DNA of 64,000 nt from Brachyspira alvinipulli ATCC 51933 (lineage in GTDB: Bacteria > Spirochaetota > Brachyspiria > Brachyspirales > Brachyspiraceae): NCBI RefSeq assembly GCF_000518245.1, contig NZ_KI912402.1, forward strand, positions 54,544 to 118,543. The letters are read 5' to 3'. The position numbers and the translations under genes are program-made. Below are positions 29,144-36,126 of the stretch, piece by piece. The notes below the pieces were generated by a model. It did not search any database and was not told the origin of the DNA. It saw nothing but the letters and a program-made list of their open reading frames with translations. The first letter of the stretch is position 1; each line of letters begins with the position of its first letter.

Positions 29144-29577
29144 TATTATTAAATAAATAAAAAAATATATTTCAATTAATAATATTATTAAGCATTTTAT
29201 AAAAATACTGTATTAAATGTTTAATTTATATATTTTAGGATTAATTTTATTATATAATTAATAGATAGCTTACAATATATAAAAAATAATTATAAAAAAG
29301 TAATTAATGTACTTTACTTTATTTTTTCTTAATATATAATATAGTATATAGGGTGATGATATGTTTTTAATTAATAATTTTAAATTAATCATTTTCTTAA
29401 ATCAGGATGCCTTTCCCGAGATTTATTCTTTATAATATACCGTGTGTATATTCGATTTTACTTCTAAATAAATAATAATCATAACTTATTAAAATTGAAC
29501 TAATTAATAGTTTTTAAGTTATATATTAATTCTATTTTAATTGAATTAACTTGTATCAATTTTTAAAGGATTTTTAT
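29144..29577. other. 434-bp intergenic region upstream of the Sao cluster
   Basis: AT-rich DNA between divergent genes. The only distinctive element is the TTCCCGAG-hairpin motif at 29413-29452. A TATAAT-like sequence occurs upstream (around 29333-29345) and could drive a long 5' leader that includes the motif. No convincing small ORF or RNA gene was seen. Confidence 0.6.
29413..29452 (+). promoter_or_regulatory. conserved leader motif copy C (TTCCCGAG + hairpin)
   Basis: TTCCCGAG (29413-29420) is followed after 13 nt by AATATAC-CGTGT-GTATATT (29434-29452), a perfect 7-bp stem with a 5-nt loop. It lies 125 nt before the saoT start codon and so in the probable leader of the whole cluster. The loop CGTGT is nearly the CGTGA of copy B although the stems differ. 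Confidence 0.5.
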
Positions 29578-29841
29578 ATGTCTAAAGTATTAGTGGAATT
29601 TATAAATACATGTCCAACTTGTGATGGATATTCTTCATATTTAAATGAATTGCAAAAAGAATATGATGATAAAATAGAAGTAAAATTGTATTATGCGGGA
29701 AAAGATTTTGATTATTTAGAGAAATATGGAATGATAGACAGAGGTACATTAATTATTAATGGAAAAGATAGATATGATGTTTTAAGTAAAAAATTAATAG
29801 AACAGGAAATAAAGAAAGCTATAGAAGCTCAAAATTGTTAA
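29578..29841 (+). CDS. saoT: thioredoxin-like protein of the Sao (organometal) cluster
   Basis: An 87-residue thioredoxin-fold protein. The redox motif CPTC is at about residues 12-15 (EFINTCPTCDGYSSYL). I placed the start at the ATG at 29578, after an AAAGGA site; a longer frame begins 27 bp upstream without a site. In the Sao system, as I recall it from RefSeq naming, homologs carry selenocysteine in this region; here the site is all cysteine. It is the first gene of the cluster and probably supplies reducing or metal-relay thiols. The name rests on gene order plus motif. Confidence 0.72.
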   Translation: MSKVLVEFINTCPTCDGYSSYLNELQKEYDDKIEVKLYYAGKDFDYLEKYGMIDRGTLIINGKDRYDVLSKKLIEQEIKKAIEAQNC

Positions 29842-29868
29842 TAGGAATAATAGGAGGGAAAATTATAT

Positions 29869-30936
29869 ATGTTAATGCGTTTTTTATATGTATTTTGGGA
29901 CTTTCTCCTTATAAGTTCTGAATGGATTATTATTAGTTTGCTATTATCCGGTATAATACATGCATTTGTTCGTCCTCAAGTGCTGCAAAAGTCTATAGGA
30001 AATAAAAAAATATCTTCTTTGATAAAAACAACAATATCAGGAGCAATTCTTCCTATATGCAGCTGCGGAGTTTTGCCTTTAGCATTAAGTTTATATAGAA
30101 CTGGTGCTTATTTAGGTCCTACTCTTTCATTTTTGGTAGCTACTCCTATAATAAATCCTGCAGCAATAATAGTATCATTTGCTATGTTAGGTAAAGAAAT
30201 AACTTTTATATATATATTATGTGGAATATTACTTCCTATAATTATAGGAATATTAGGAAATATTTTTGGAGGAAATGAATTAATATCTCCAGAAGTTTTG
30301 AAATTGCAAAGTATGAATATTAAAATTCCAGAAAATACTTATGTAGATAAAACACCTTGGTACAAAAAATTCTATAATGGTATTTTATGGGGGTTTAATA
30401 ATCTTGGAATAGAAATAAGCAGATTTATTTTAATAGGTACTTTATTCGGAGCTGTTTTGATAACAGTTATACCTCAGGCATTTGTAATGCAGTATTTAAG
30501 CAATCCTAAATTAGTATCAATAATAGGTATAACTGCAGTAGGCTGTATAATGTATGTATGTGCTTTAGGTCATATTCCATTTATTGCGGCATTGATATCT
30601 GCCGGAGCTTCACCTGGTGTAGCAATTACATTTTTAATAACAGGTGTTGCAACAAATATATCTGAATTAATTAGCATGTATAAGCTCATAGGTAAGAGAA
30701 CTTTAATCATATATCTTGTTTCTATGCTTTTTTTTGGTATCTTGATAGGTTATATTACAAATATTTTATTAACGGATCATTTTACGCCCATCTTTGATTT
30801 ATCAAATTCCCAAAGGCAAATAGAAATAGCCAATAACATTAATATTACTTTCCCCAGTTGGTTTAAAAATTTATGTGCAATTATAGTATTATTTATGGGC
30901 TTATATTCATGGTTTATGATTTTAATAAAAAAATAA
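29869..30936 (+). CDS. saoE: ArsP/DUF318-type permease, putative Sao efflux transporter
   Basis: A 355-residue polytopic membrane protein with about 8-9 segments. The diagnostic block is PICSCGVLPLALSLYRTGA at about 63-81, followed by GPTLSFLVATPIINPAAI, as in the ArsP_1 (DUF318) permeases, some of which export organoarsenicals. The CSCG cysteines could bind a soft metal. AGGAGGG precedes the ATG. It follows saoT by 27 bp. In this cluster the most likely job is export of an organometal or its product. Confidence 0.78.
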   Translation: MLMRFLYVFWDFLLISSEWIIISLLLSGIIHAFVRPQVLQKSIGNKKISSLIKTTISGAILPICSCGVLPLALSLYRTGAYLGPTLSFLVATPIINPAAIIVSFAMLGKEITFIYILCGILLPIIIGILGNIFGGNELISPEVLKLQSMNIKIPENTYVDKTPWYKKFYNGILWGFNNLGIEISRFILIGTLFGAVLITVIPQAFVMQYLSNPKLVSIIGITAVGCIMYVCALGHIPFIAALISAGASPGVAITFLITGVATNISELISMYKLIGKRTLIIYLVSMLFFGILIGYITNILLTDHFTPIFDLSNSQRQIEIANNINITFPSWFKNLCAIIVLFMGLYSWFMILIKK

Positions 30937-30967
30937 AGATATTAGTAAATAGGGAAAAACAATTTCA

Positions 30968-31417
30968 ATGTTGAAAGTATTATATGCTGTGTGCGTTTTT
31001 ATACTAATATCTTGCAGTAACAATAAAGAGGATATTTCAAATGTAGATGGAATAAAAAATAATGAACTTTATGAAGCCTATATTGAAAAATATTCGGATA
31101 AAGAATTACTAATATTTTTGGAGGGAGATTTCAGTGGCGATAATATAGATGATTTAATAATAATTTATAGAGAATCAGCTTATTCAAATAAATTGGTAGG
31201 CATATACAAAGATTCAAATGGACGTATATTAATTACTGCTCCAATACCTGCACCTATAGAAAATTACACAATAAGATTTTATAACATAGATGAGAAGGTA
31301 CCGAATGAAATTTTGGTATCAGGACAAAAGGGTGCTAATATAGGATTTGCTGTTTATAGGCTTGAGAATGGTCAATTAATAAGTTTATTTGAAAATGGAA
31401 TGGAGAAATGTTGTTAA
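30968..31417 (+). CDS. saoC: lipoprotein ending in Cys-Cys-COOH
   Basis: A 149-residue lipoprotein (lipobox LISC at about residue 16). The mature protein ends exactly in two cysteines (NGMEKCC then TAA). That C-terminal Cys-Cys is the defining trait of the family I recall as SaoC; in selenium-using members the last residue is Sec (encoded TGA). Here both are TGT. A terminal thiol pair on a membrane-anchored protein would suit capture of a soft metal such as mercury. It lies between the permease gene and the ABC binding-protein gene. Confidence 0.75.
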   Translation: MLKVLYAVCVFILISCSNNKEDISNVDGIKNNELYEAYIEKYSDKELLIFLEGDFSGDNIDDLIIIYRESAYSNKLVGIYKDSNGRILITAPIPAPIENYTIRFYNIDEKVPNEILVSGQKGANIGFAVYRLENGQLISLFENGMEKCC

Positions 31418-31453
31418 AATAAAATATATTAATTAATTTTAAGGAGAACAATA

Positions 31454-32623
31454 ATGAAAAAAAATATTATTATATTTTTAATGATATTATTTGCTGTTTC
31501 TTGCAGCGGTGGGGATTCATCTAAAAACAAATCGGATGTTATATCAGAAGATGTACAAGCTATTGTTGCAGATTATAATTTAGAGGAATTAAGTGCTGAG
31601 GATAAAAAATATAAAATTAATTTAGGTTATTATAATTGTGATCACATGACAGCAGCTTGTGTAGGAGAAGATACAGGAATATATAAAGCATTGGGTTTAA
31701 ATGTTACAGTTACCGGTAACGGTAATGTTCCAGAAGCTATGAGTGCAGGACAAATGGATATGGCTTATGCTGGCTTTACTACTACATTGAATGCTGTAAA
31801 AAATAAAGTTCCTCTATTTATAGCAGCAGAAAATCATACAGGCGGTGCTGAGTATTTTGTTGTTTCTAAAGATATTGAAAAACCGGAAGATTTACTTAAT
31901 AAAAAAATATCTATGGGAGCTAATCCGGAAACAGAAAATTTGAATTGGGCAGAATGGTCTGAACAGTTAAATATACCTAGAGATATTACTAATTATGAAA
32001 ACTTTTCTATGAGTGATTCTGATGCTTATTTTGCATTTAAATTGGGACAATTAGATGGTTACGGTGCATGTGATCCTTGGGGTTCTATGGCTGAATATGA
32101 AGATACAGGAAAAGTATTAAAAAGACAAAATACTGATAGAGAAGCAGACGGACATGGTACTTGCTGTAAAGTTTGTATGAACTATAATTTTGCTAAAGCT
32201 CATCCAAAATTGGCAGAACGTATACTTCTTGCTCATGCTATGTCTATAGAATATATGTATCTTCATCCGTATAAAGCAGCTCAAATATTTGCTGAAAATT
32301 ATAATGTACCTTTGGAAGTTGGACTTATGACTTTATGGAAAAAACTTAATGAAGAGGGCAGAACTATCACTTGGAAATTAAATAGAGATTATGTTCATAA
32401 TCAAATGAAAACTATGAAAAGATTAGGTGTTAGAGATGATATTAATTCTCTTGATATAGATGAGTATATAGATTTATCATACTTTGATAATTGCGGTGCT
32501 AAAGATTTTGACACATTCATCAAAGAAGAAGTAGATCCTATATTCCCTCTTGGTATGAGTTATGAAGAATGGAGAGCTAAAGCTGTAGAAGTTGATAATA
32601 TTAAAGAAGAACCTAAAGTTTGA
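31454..32623 (+). CDS. saoX: ABC transporter substrate-binding lipoprotein of the Sao cluster
   Basis: A 389-residue binding protein (lipobox AVSC) of the NMT1/SsuA/TauA-like type. The N-lobe has YYNCDHMTAACVGEDTGIYK, with two extra cysteines beside the ligand-entry region. Later come MSAGQMDMAYAGFTTTL and GTCCKVCMNYNFAKAHPKLA, a C-C-x2-C cluster. Multiple cysteines are unusual for this fold and fit a thiophilic metal ligand. An AGGAGAA site lies 7 nt before the ATG. The saoX versus saoB assignment of the two binding proteins is from memory and could be swapped. Confidence 0.62.
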   Translation: MKKNIIIFLMILFAVSCSGGDSSKNKSDVISEDVQAIVADYNLEELSAEDKKYKINLGYYNCDHMTAACVGEDTGIYKALGLNVTVTGNGNVPEAMSAGQMDMAYAGFTTTLNAVKNKVPLFIAAENHTGGAEYFVVSKDIEKPEDLLNKKISMGANPETENLNWAEWSEQLNIPRDITNYENFSMSDSDAYFAFKLGQLDGYGACDPWGSMAEYEDTGKVLKRQNTDREADGHGTCCKVCMNYNFAKAHPKLAERILLAHAMSIEYMYLHPYKAAQIFAENYNVPLEVGLMTLWKKLNEEGRTITWKLNRDYVHNQMKTMKRLGVRDDINSLDIDEYIDLSYFDNCGAKDFDTFIKEEVDPIFPLGMSYEEWRAKAVEVDNIKEEPKV

Positions 32624-32654
32624 TATTGTTTTTTATAAATAATAAAGGTAAAAG

Positions 32655-33479
32655 ATGAAGCATATAATAAAAAGAAATAAATATATTATTATATTTAGCG
32701 TCATTTTTATATTGTGCTTCATCTTATTTCAAAATTATAAAGAAAATATTAATAGCAAAAAGAATAAAATTACCATAGCATGTGGTAATGATGCTTCCGG
32801 GATGTTATTTGACTATATAATAAATAGTAAAAATTCAAATTTAGAGTTTTCAAATTTTGATTATATACAATTTTTGGACTGCTGCGGTTCTCAAGCGGAA
32901 TTTGCTTTTATATCTGGAAAGGTAGATATGGCAGTATTATGTCCTGATGCAGCATTTCAATTATTATCAATAGATACCAATTATTATATAGTCGATTCTA
33001 TAGTCAATGGTTCTAATGTTTTAGTATATTATGATGAAATTTATGATCATAATATTGAACCTAAAAATATTGGATATATGAACAAGCGTTTATTGCAGGA
33101 AGAATTATTAAAATCAACATATTCAAACTCGAATTATTATCCAATGCTTGCAACTGCTTTGCCTTATGCTTTGGAAAGAAAAACAGTTGATGCTATTTTT
33201 ATTGATATTATGTTAGCTTTAAAAACAAAAAATACTAGGTTTAAAAAAATAAATACTGAAAAGCCGGATTATTATTTAGTTGTATCAAAAAAATTGAAGG
33301 ACAGTGCTGTACTTAATGATTTTATTAAAATTTATAATGAATCTGTTGATGATATAGAAAATGATACAATATTATCTAATGTGCTTATTAGTTATTTGGA
33401 CATTTCAAATTCTGAAGGAGAAATGAATATATGGAAAACAATGGGAGTCAAATTCCACAAAATAAAAGCAGATCTATAA
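32655..33479 (+). CDS. saoB: second substrate-binding-like protein with a Cys-Cys motif
   Basis: A 274-residue protein held by one N-terminal membrane segment (about residues 10-25). It has the two-lobe binding-protein pattern, with IACGNDASGML near the N-terminus and the marker QFLDCCGSQAEFAFISGKVD at about 75-94, codons TGC TGC. In families I recall under the name SaoB this pair is Cys-Sec in selenium-using species. It overlaps the permease gene by 49 bp. The partner role beside the first binding protein is unknown; it may form a two-component relay. Confidence 0.6.
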   Translation: MKHIIKRNKYIIIFSVIFILCFILFQNYKENINSKKNKITIACGNDASGMLFDYIINSKNSNLEFSNFDYIQFLDCCGSQAEFAFISGKVDMAVLCPDAAFQLLSIDTNYYIVDSIVNGSNVLVYYDEIYDHNIEPKNIGYMNKRLLQEELLKSTYSNSNYYPMLATALPYALERKTVDAIFIDIMLALKTKNTRFKKINTEKPDYYLVVSKKLKDSAVLNDFIKIYNESVDDIENDTILSNVLISYLDISNSEGEMNIWKTMGVKFHKIKADL

Positions 33480-34258
33480 ATTTAGGAAATGCAGGAAACA
33501 GTATTTTTATGAAATTTTATAGCTGTTCTGTACTTATTGCAATTATGGTCATTTGGTATTTTCTTGCTAAAAAGATAGATAATAATTTGCTGCTTCCTGA
33601 TTTTATTATAACTTGTAAGGAGTTTTTTAAATCTTGGATAGATCCTTATACGGTTCAAAATTTACTTATAACATTAGAAAGAGTATTTAGGGGATTTATT
33701 ATAGCTTGTTTAATAGGTTTACCTTTAGGATTATTTATGGGATATTCTAAACCTATACTCTTAGCTGTTTCGCCAATAATAAATTCAATAAGACAAGTTC
33801 CAATAATGGCTTGGATACCTTTAGCTATAGTATGGTTCGGACTTGGAGACGGGCCTACTATATTTTTAATAACTATGAGTGCTATATTTCCGCTCATAAT
33901 TAATACTATAGATGGAGTTCGAGGAATAGATCCTAATTATATTAATGCCGCCAGAAGTATGGGGGCTAAAAATATAGATATAATGATTGATATAATATTG
34001 CCTGGAGCTTTACCTGCATTTTTAACAGGATGCAGGCTCGCTTTAGGTTTGGGATGGATGAGTGTTATTTGTGCTGAATTTATAGCTACAAGCAAGGGTT
34101 TTGGATTTATATTAGTAGAAGCACAACAAAGACTTGAAACTCCTAAACTTTATGCTCTTATGATAGTATCAGCTATAATTGGATTTAGTATGGATAGAGT
34201 ATTGATTATATTAGAAAAACTGCTTACTTCTTGGAGATTTAAAAATGGCAATTCTTGA
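33431..34258 (+). CDS. saoP: ABC transporter permease of the Sao cluster
   Basis: A 275-residue BPD_transp_1 permease with six membrane segments and the EAA loop (ARSMGAKNIDIMIDIILPGALP), like SsuC/TauC. The first ATG (33431) follows GAAGGAG by 10 nt and overlaps the upstream gene; a second in-frame ATG at 33510 would drop a polar N-terminus. Its 3' end overlaps the ATPase gene by 14 bp. Together with the ATPase and the two binding proteins it makes a complete importer, in contrast to the lone binding proteins at 1-3433. Confidence 0.85.
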   Translation: MENNGSQIPQNKSRSINLGNAGNSIFMKFYSCSVLIAIMVIWYFLAKKIDNNLLLPDFIITCKEFFKSWIDPYTVQNLLITLERVFRGFIIACLIGLPLGLFMGYSKPILLAVSPIINSIRQVPIMAWIPLAIVWFGLGDGPTIFLITMSAIFPLIINTIDGVRGIDPNYINAARSMGAKNIDIMIDIILPGALPAFLTGCRLALGLGWMSVICAEFIATSKGFGFILVEAQQRLETPKLYALMIVSAIIGFSMDRVLIILEKLLTSWRFKNGNS

Positions 34259-35021
34259 AGTGAATAATGTATGTAAATCTTTTAAAACTTCAAAAAAATC
34301 TCCGGAAGTTGAAGTATTAAAGAATATTAGTTTTAATATAGAGAAAGGAGAATTTGTAACTTTGCTTGGTCCGTCAGGATGCGGTAAAACTACACTTTTA
34401 ACTATGATAGGAGGTTTTCAAAATCCTACTTCCGGCGAGGTGCTTCTTGAGGGAAATAAAATAGAAAAACCTTCTTCTGAGAGAGGATATGTTTTCCAAA
34501 ATTATGCTTTATTTCCATGGATGAATGTTGAAAAAAATATACTTTATTCTTTAAAATTTTTAAAAATGACAAAAGAAGAAAAAAGAAATAGATTAGAAGA
34601 ACTTTTGGAGATGTCTCATCTTAAAGGGCATGAAAAGAAGTATCCTATATCACTTTCTGGAGGTATGCAGCAAAGGGTTGCAGTTGTAAGAGCATTAGCA
34701 CCTAACCCTAAAATATTGCTTTTAGATGAACCTCTTGGTGCAATAGATTTGCAGATGAGAGAGCATATGCAAAATGAATTATTACAGCTTGTTAAAAATA
34801 GTAACAGCACAGTTTTAATGGTAACTCATGATGTGTCTGAAGCTGTTTATATGAGTGATAGAGTTATAGTTATGAGTTTGAATAAAGGTGAGATAGTTGC
34901 TGATATAACAGTAAATATTAAGCATCCAAGAGAAAGAGATAGTTCTGCTTATATAGAATGTGTTAGAGAACTTACTAATAATGTTAAAAAGGCTTTTATA
35001 AATAAACCTATTGAAGCATAA
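34245..35021 (+). CDS. saoA: ABC transporter ATP-binding protein of the Sao cluster
   Basis: A 258-residue nitrate/taurine-type ATPase. The Walker A is GPSGCGKTT, the Q-loop is FQNYALFPWM, the signature is SLSGGMQQRVAVVRAL, Walker B is ILLLDEPLGAID, and the switch is VTHD. All the catalytic residues are in place, so it should be active. It overlaps the permease gene by 14 bp. The family call is certain; the organometal role is taken from its neighbours. Confidence 0.88.
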   Translation: MAILEVNNVCKSFKTSKKSPEVEVLKNISFNIEKGEFVTLLGPSGCGKTTLLTMIGGFQNPTSGEVLLEGNKIEKPSSERGYVFQNYALFPWMNVEKNILYSLKFLKMTKEEKRNRLEELLEMSHLKGHEKKYPISLSGGMQQRVAVVRALAPNPKILLLDEPLGAIDLQMREHMQNELLQLVKNSNSTVLMVTHDVSEAVYMSDRVIVMSLNKGEIVADITVNIKHPRERDSSAYIECVRELTNNVKKAFINKPIEA

Positions 35022-35082
35022 TAGTATTTTCTTTAATTTATAAATTTTAATAATTACAAATATTTTTGCAGGAGTAATTAAT

Positions 35083-35416
35083 ATGAAAGTAGCTTATATT
35101 TTCAGCAGCCAAAATTCGCATATGATTTTGGATAAAATGATAGTTCCGCAATTATTAAATGACAATCATGGTGCGGAAGTTGTAGGTATGATGTTTTTTG
35201 CAGACAATACTTTTATGCTTACTAAAGGAAGCAGTGTTGGCGATAGGCTTTCAAAAGTATTGGAAAAGAAAAAAATACTTCTTATGGCATGTAATATCTG
35301 TGCTATTGAAAGAGGGATTGACAACAAACTAATTGATGGTGCTTGTATAGGTTGTTTCCCAAGACTTATATAAAGCTTTGGAAGGAAGCGGTGTAGAGCA
35401 GGTAATAACTTTATAA
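35083..35416 (+). pseudogene. saoD: DsrE-related protein, one-base frameshift near the 3' end
   Basis: The frame opens with MKVAYIFSSQNSHMILDKM and runs to GACIGCFP, then hits a stop at 35373 after PRLI. If one A of CCCAAGAC (35358-35365) is dropped, the frame continues as DLYKALEGSGVEQVITL and ends at a TAA at 35414-35416, giving about 110 residues that end just before the next gene, as is usual for DsrE-fold proteins. The MACNICAIERG and GACIGCFP cysteines could act in sulfur or metal relay. GGAG precedes the ATG. This is either real decay or a base-calling error. Confidence 0.72.
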
Positions 35417-35905
35417 GGAGTATTTATGTTTGATACAAATTTTATGGAGAAATATGGTGTATCTGATAAGTATCATAACCTACCTAAAGATATACAAGAT
35501 GCTAGATTAAGATTAATAAATAGAGTTATAGATACAGGCTGTACTATTTCTAAAAAAGAGGCAGTAAATATATGCGGAGATGAGAAATTGTATGATATCT
35601 TGATAGAAAAAGAAATTATTACAATGAGCGGTGATGATGTTGCTTTTTTATATCCTGTATCTGCTATGGAAACGAATCATAGGGTTAAACTTTCTGATGG
35701 AAGAGAATTCTGTTCCATGTGTGCAATTGATGCTTTAGGTTCTTATAGTTTATTTCATCAGGATACAGAGATTAATTCTATATGCAGTCAGACAGGAGAT
35801 AAAATATTTGTTAAAATTAGAGACAGACAAATAGTTGAGCATTTTCCAGATGATATTCATGTTGTTCATGTTGATTTAAATAAAAATAAGAATTGGGCTA
35901 GCACC

Positions 35906-35925
35906 TGCTGAAATATGCTGAAATA
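35906..35925 (+). repeat. exact 10-bp tandem duplication inside saoL
   Basis: TGCTGAAATA is repeated twice head to tail. Ten is not a multiple of three, so the second copy is read in a shifted frame. Each copy contains TGC TGA in the frame that belongs to its own side of the gene: copy 1 in the upstream frame and copy 2 in the downstream frame. Confidence 0.9.
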
Positions 35926-35956
35926 TTATGAATTTCTTTGGTTCAAAGAATAATAT
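35923..35956 (+). other. candidate bacterial SECIS-like hairpin after the TGA of saoL
   Basis: ATATTAT (35923-35929) pairs with ATAATAT (35950-35956), and TCTTTG (35935-35940) pairs with CAAAGA (35944-35949), leaving a 5-nt one-sided bulge and a GGU at the tip (35940-35942). From the TGA of repeat copy 2 to the tip G is 18 nt, about the spacing known for E. coli fdhF. It could be chance in AT-rich coding DNA. Confidence 0.35.
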
Positions 35957-36126
35957 GAATGAATGGCTTAAAAATCAGGATATAGACAATAATACTATTT
36001 ATCTTTTAGATTTGCCTACAGCTTTTAGAGTGGCAACTGCTATATTTAGATTGTAAGTATTTCCTTAAAATTAATTATATATTTTTATGGTGATAGATAT
36101 TATGAAATTAATATCTATCACTTATT

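Follow-up and report, generated by a model that had tools for sequence, protein, structure and literature searches.

The SAO system is described as a multi-selenoprotein operon (PMC13188914), and a table in that source, which follows Haft and Gwadz (2023, J Bacteriol 205:e0025922), lists SaoL as a selenoprotein with the family model NF040728 and the motif CU. Selenocysteine (Sec) in SaoL is not presented here as a discovery, because SaoL is already published as a selenoprotein family. The enzyme that SaoL resembles is MerB, in which Cys96 and Cys159 bind mercury and Asp99 assists thiol addition (PMC4525700). What is new in the present analysis is small, namely, a broken saoL allele, the assignment of the Sec codon to the Cys159 position of MerB, and the observation that NF040728 ends one codon before Sec.

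A complete sao operon was identified at 29551–36056 of the window, the stretch of 64,000 nucleotides of Brachyspira alvinipulli DNA that was analysed. The gene order is saoT-E-C-X-B-P-A-D-L, and the genes were named by NCBIfam. The eight genes upstream of saoL are as follows:

29551–29841, + strand: saoT, thioredoxin-like protein in the Cys form (CPTC); NF040730, 131 bits
29869–30936, + strand: saoE, efflux transporter; NF040736, 487 bits
30968–31417, + strand: saoC, Cys-Cys-COOH protein; NF040734, 159 bits; Cys form in 11 of 11 Brachyspira
31454–32623, + strand: saoX, substrate-binding protein; NF040735, 506 bits
32655–33479, + strand: saoB, substrate-binding protein; NF040727, 322 bits; no internal stop in 11 of 11 Brachyspira
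33431–34258, + strand: saoP, ABC permease; NF040733, 387 bits
34245–35021, + strand: saoA, ABC ATPase; NF040729, 371 bits
35083–35417, + strand: saoD, DsrE-related, broken by a 1-nt insertion at 35361/35362, the open reading frame stopping early at 35373

Among the genes checked, SaoL alone appears to contain Sec in the Brachyspira sao operon, since, of the other family members described with Sec in PMC13188914, SaoC, SaoB and the SaoT of the window are Cys forms or lack an internal TGA. A candidate second Sec at the C-terminus of SaoE (Q-C-TGA in several relatives) was rejected, as this motif arises where saoE overlaps the start codon of saoC. The saoD gene is intact, with 110 codons, in the sister MAG and in five other relatives, and is missing between saoA and saoL in G010, G012 and G016. 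Frameshifts were also observed in the operons of other Brachyspira, in saoD of G001 (L027) and in saoA of G010 (L018); they may represent real decay or sequence errors.

The saoL locus is composed of the following features:

35426–36056, + strand: saoL, predicted MerB-like organometallic lyase gene, lying in two frames
35426–35911, + strand: 5' part of saoL, 161 codons followed by the TGA of copy 1 (open reading frame list, NF040728 and residue mapping)
35906–35915, + strand: copy 1 of the tandem TGCTGAAATA, with TGA at 35909–35911 in frame with the ATG
35916–35925, + strand: copy 2 of the tandem TGCTGAAATA, whose TGA at 35919–35921 lies in the +1 frame and keeps the ancestral spacing to the hairpin
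35916–36056, + strand: 3' part of saoL, C-U-NIMNFF...IFRL, in the +1 frame, with TAA at 36054–36056
35934–35950, + strand: predicted bacterial SECIS hairpin UUCUUU-GGUUC-AAAGAA (pairing, synonymous constraint and fold)

The frame that opens at the saoL ATG (35426) is ended by TGC TGA at 35906–35911, with 161 amino acids upstream of the UGA, and the +1 frame from copy 2 reads TGC TGA and then NIMNFFGSKN...IFRL up to the TAA. A first, sequence-only reading of this DNA had described an exact 10-bp duplication at which the frame changes, a TGC TGA in each copy in the frame of its own side, and a MerB C-terminus that continues in another frame; each of these was recovered at the coordinates given above. 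The 3' fragment alone gave a weak MerB match, and full-length relatives match MerB through that part. The sister MAG (L030/G020) has a single TGCTGAAATA unit at exactly the same place. No second copy of saoL was found elsewhere in the genome by search.

The ancestral state of the gene was evaluated in relatives. A SaoL/MerB gene was detected in 11 of the 26 Brachyspira representative genomes searched, and the identical 11 carry saoB. The 10 other Brachyspira saoL genes all have one copy at the TGCTGAAATA site, where TGC or TGT is followed by TGA and NIMNFF in a single frame of 206 codons. Each clostridial match extending across the site contains one TGA, located at the same codon in the 17 that were read out. 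Within the matches of the profiles used, a Cys form of SaoL at the UGA codon was found in none of the 27 intact copies examined (10 Brachyspira and 17 clostridial). Because all relatives with a single copy have the in-frame TGA, the UGA predates the duplication. The comparison with homologues proposed in the sequence-only reading thereby agrees with its parsimony argument: the 10 other Brachyspira have TGA and one 10-bp unit each, and a form with TGC or TGT only was not encountered. One clostridial SaoL (L053 and L055, G517) is split into two frames near residue 135 with the UGA retained, and is possibly another decaying copy.

Slippage could in principle remove one unit of a perfect tandem 10-mer, and saoL might thus be phase-variable, with the two-copy state as one position of a reversible switch. 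We regard this as extremely unlikely, given that slippage is rare with two copies, that the second unit occurs in none of the 10 relatives, that a longer repeat tract is absent, and that the saoD lesion is independent.

The genome contains the machinery for Sec. The genes for tRNA-Sec (anticodon UCA), SelA and SelB form one cluster (selC-selA-selB), selD is also present, and grdA carries an in-frame TGA; all four genes for which a search had been suggested were thus found. Among Brachyspira, selB was detected in 11 of the 11 sao operon carriers tested. Across the genus, the operon is patchy and the Sec trait is not: SaoL and SaoB are absent from 15 of the 26 Brachyspira, and a tRNA-Sec match is present in all 26.

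Bacterial SECIS elements are hairpins with a G in the apical loop, located 16–37 nt after the UGA. The saoL hairpin agrees with this rule for both copies, with its loop starting 18 nt past the copy-2 UGA and 28 nt past the copy-1 UGA. The hairpin with a GGU tip 18 nt after copy 2 had been noticed from the letters alone, and its position and stem were upheld by the homologues. It is similar to the Escherichia coli fdhF SECIS in the apical-loop GGU and the 18-nt distance from the UGA, and differs from it in stem sequence and in its shorter stem. The six stem pairs are formed in 100% of the alignment cells over 17 distinct sequences. One of these pairs is U-A in Brachyspira versus C-G in Clostridia, a two-sided change that is probably a single event, and G-U variants occur at others. 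Outside the alignment, three clostridial sequences (L050–L052) have UUUUUUC...GAAAAAA, a further compensated change identified by eye. In Brachyspira, synonymous constraint along saoL is highest at codons 163–173, which lie over the hairpin (7 of 9 invariant versus 23 of 109; Fisher p = 0.0009), and the rare codons TTC and AAG (13% each) are fixed within this segment.

In the folding check that had been suggested, the energies lie near those of shuffled sequences (z from −0.65 to −1.96, and +0.15 in one). As the z-scores are little better than shuffles, they were not counted as support. An Rfam scan of the hairpin region returned no relevant match, only chance snoRNA-like ones. A lower stem (columns 11–15 with 39–43), paired in 61% of cells, was rejected. 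On the basis of the pairing in every aligned homologue and the synonymous constraint, we regard the hairpin as a bacterial SECIS that functions in the relatives. From the in-frame TGA throughout the relatives, the complete machinery and the conserved hairpin under synonymous constraint, we infer that the ancestral saoL UGA was a Sec codon, at which Sec would have been inserted. The sequence-only reading had named three observations that would speak against Sec, namely, homologues with a Cys codon instead of TGA, a genome lacking selB or tRNA-Sec, and a hairpin that is not conserved downstream; none of them was made.

The position of the Sec codon relative to the MerB active site was determined by profile alignment. 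A profile of 20 SaoL sequences gave an ungapped alignment with MerB R831b and MerB2 across the active site, in which the UGA falls on Cys159 and the preceding TGC on residue 158. With a profile of 4 SaoL sequences, the R831b pair was aligned as Cys-Cys at the cost of a gap of one residue. The ungapped alignment is favoured because MerB2 has a single Cys there, and the assignment of the two codons to Cys159-Cys160 was given up for residue 158 and Cys159 on the evidence of the 20-sequence profile. The proposal of the sequence-only reading that TGC TGA stands at Cys159-Cys160 was hence correct for the active-site position and one residue off in register. SaoL Cys99 corresponds to Cys96 of R831b, Asp102 to Asp99, and Sec (U162 in the numbering of the sister) to Cys159.

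The predicted structure of the sister SaoL (Sec read as Cys, pLDDT 88) has the MerB fold, with Z values of about 19 (19.3 to 3f2g) and an identity to MerB of 17–20% over the fold. SaoL is a predicted MerB-fold organometallic lyase with Sec at the position of the catalytic Cys159. It is like MerB (R831b; PDB 3f0o, 1s6l) in its fold, in the positions of Cys96 and Asp99, and in having its UGA on the Cys159 position, whereas it carries Sec, not Cys, at 159. MerB2 (5c17) has Ser at the site of SaoL Asp102. The MerB triad Cys96/Asp99/Cys159 is matched by C99, D102 and U162 of the sister SaoL, and the truncated product of the window is without the third. Because the UGA sits on Cys159, the predicted 161-residue product lacks one catalytic residue together with the last 44 residues.

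The saoL gene of the window is very probably a genuine member of the SaoL selenoprotein family that was recently pseudogenised by the 10-bp duplication of its Cys-Sec codons, and its function has very probably been lost. In an intact SaoL, Sec would be inserted at the UGA by SelB and tRNA-Sec, directed by the hairpin 18 nt downstream. Recent replication slippage, which we infer as the cause, would have duplicated the 10 bp holding the Cys and Sec codons, and ribosomes starting from the saoL ATG would now reach the UGA of copy 1 (UGA-1) first. Termination at UGA-1 would yield 161 amino acids with the catalytic Sec missing. Sec insertion at UGA-1, from which the hairpin is now 28 nt away, would be followed by 13 wrong codons up to a TAA and would yield 175 amino acids. 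The UGA of copy 2 (UGA-2), at the ancestral hairpin distance, and the last 44 codons would stay out of frame. Since UGA-1 leads to a stop or into the wrong frame, and the reading frame of the ATG includes neither UGA-2 nor the last 44 codons, saoL would be a young pseudogene. The earlier claim that the TGA was, or still is, read as Sec is accordingly retained for the past, given the TGA in all relatives found, the Sec machinery and the constrained hairpin, and is dropped for the present, where UGA-1 opens into the wrong frame and UGA-2 is unreachable without a +1 shift.

Such a shift would be needed if the duplication were tolerated: ribosomes would move by +1 at or after UGA-1 and read UGA-2 as Sec, thereby producing, by frameshifting together with Sec recoding, a full-length selenoprotein with a few extra residues before Cys-Sec. 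The +1 frame is open between the two UGAs, UGA-2 retains the ancestral 18-nt hairpin distance, and the out-of-frame part has no amino-acid change assigned to the window lineage; however, a recent lesion accounts equally well for this missing decay. No known slippery motif is visible, and the shift is disfavoured because tRNA-Cys, under the codon–anticodon rules, cannot re-pair in +1 on UGC-UGA. With the two-UGA arrangement present in none of the relatives and the adjoining saoD broken too, a tolerated duplication is considered very improbable.

About 14.7 kb of the window aligns to the sister MAG (L030), and the differences were compared with the open reading frame lists. The saoL 10-bp unit and the saoD 1-nt insertion are the only frame-breaking coding indels in this region, and the remaining indels are intergenic or at gene ends. 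In the 44 codons past the lesion, no amino-acid change is assigned to the window lineage, the differences from the sister lying on the sister's side, which points to a recent lesion. The upstream part of saoL has a pN/pS of 0.073 and shows no clear relaxation. This pattern is compatible with a recent lesion and with a sequencing error in a gene that is intact.

Under the latter explanation, the second 10-bp unit, and possibly the extra nucleotide in saoD, would have arisen by error in sequencing or assembly, and saoL would in reality encode an intact, ordinary SaoL selenoprotein. The undecayed sequence after the lesion and the occurrence of two frameshifts within 550 bp agree with it, but an exact 10-bp duplication is atypical for base-calling, the other coding frames in the 14.7 kb have no frame-breaking indel against the sister MAG, and the operon frameshifts in saoD of G001 and saoA of G010 fit real decay. 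We therefore consider an error unlikely, and retain recent pseudogenisation as the preferred reading.

The allele was compared with the SaoL family. The first 161 SaoL residues score 181.4 bits against NF040728, whose curated cut-off is 140. The model ends (159/159) at the Cys before the UGA, and Sec-truncated proteins score full length; automatic annotation is consequently blind to the difference between intact and broken SaoL, because NF040728 stops just before Sec. The window gene is like the family in its score over the cut-off, its sao operon context and its Cys-Sec motif, and unlike it in that the 10 bp with the Cys-Sec codons are duplicated and the frame changes afterwards. A UGA after Cys, followed by NIMNFF in one frame, was found in the 10 Brachyspira relatives and the 17 clostridial sequences, and not in the window saoL, which is filed as a broken SaoL member because the duplication puts its C-terminus in another frame.

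For the family, the gain is that the predicted Sec of SaoL sits on the position of the catalytic Cys159 of MerB, a position that is never Cys in the 27 intact copies. For the organism, the locus would represent a selenoprotein gene that is being lost through a duplication of its own Sec codon, in a genome that retains the Sec machinery and other selenoproteins.
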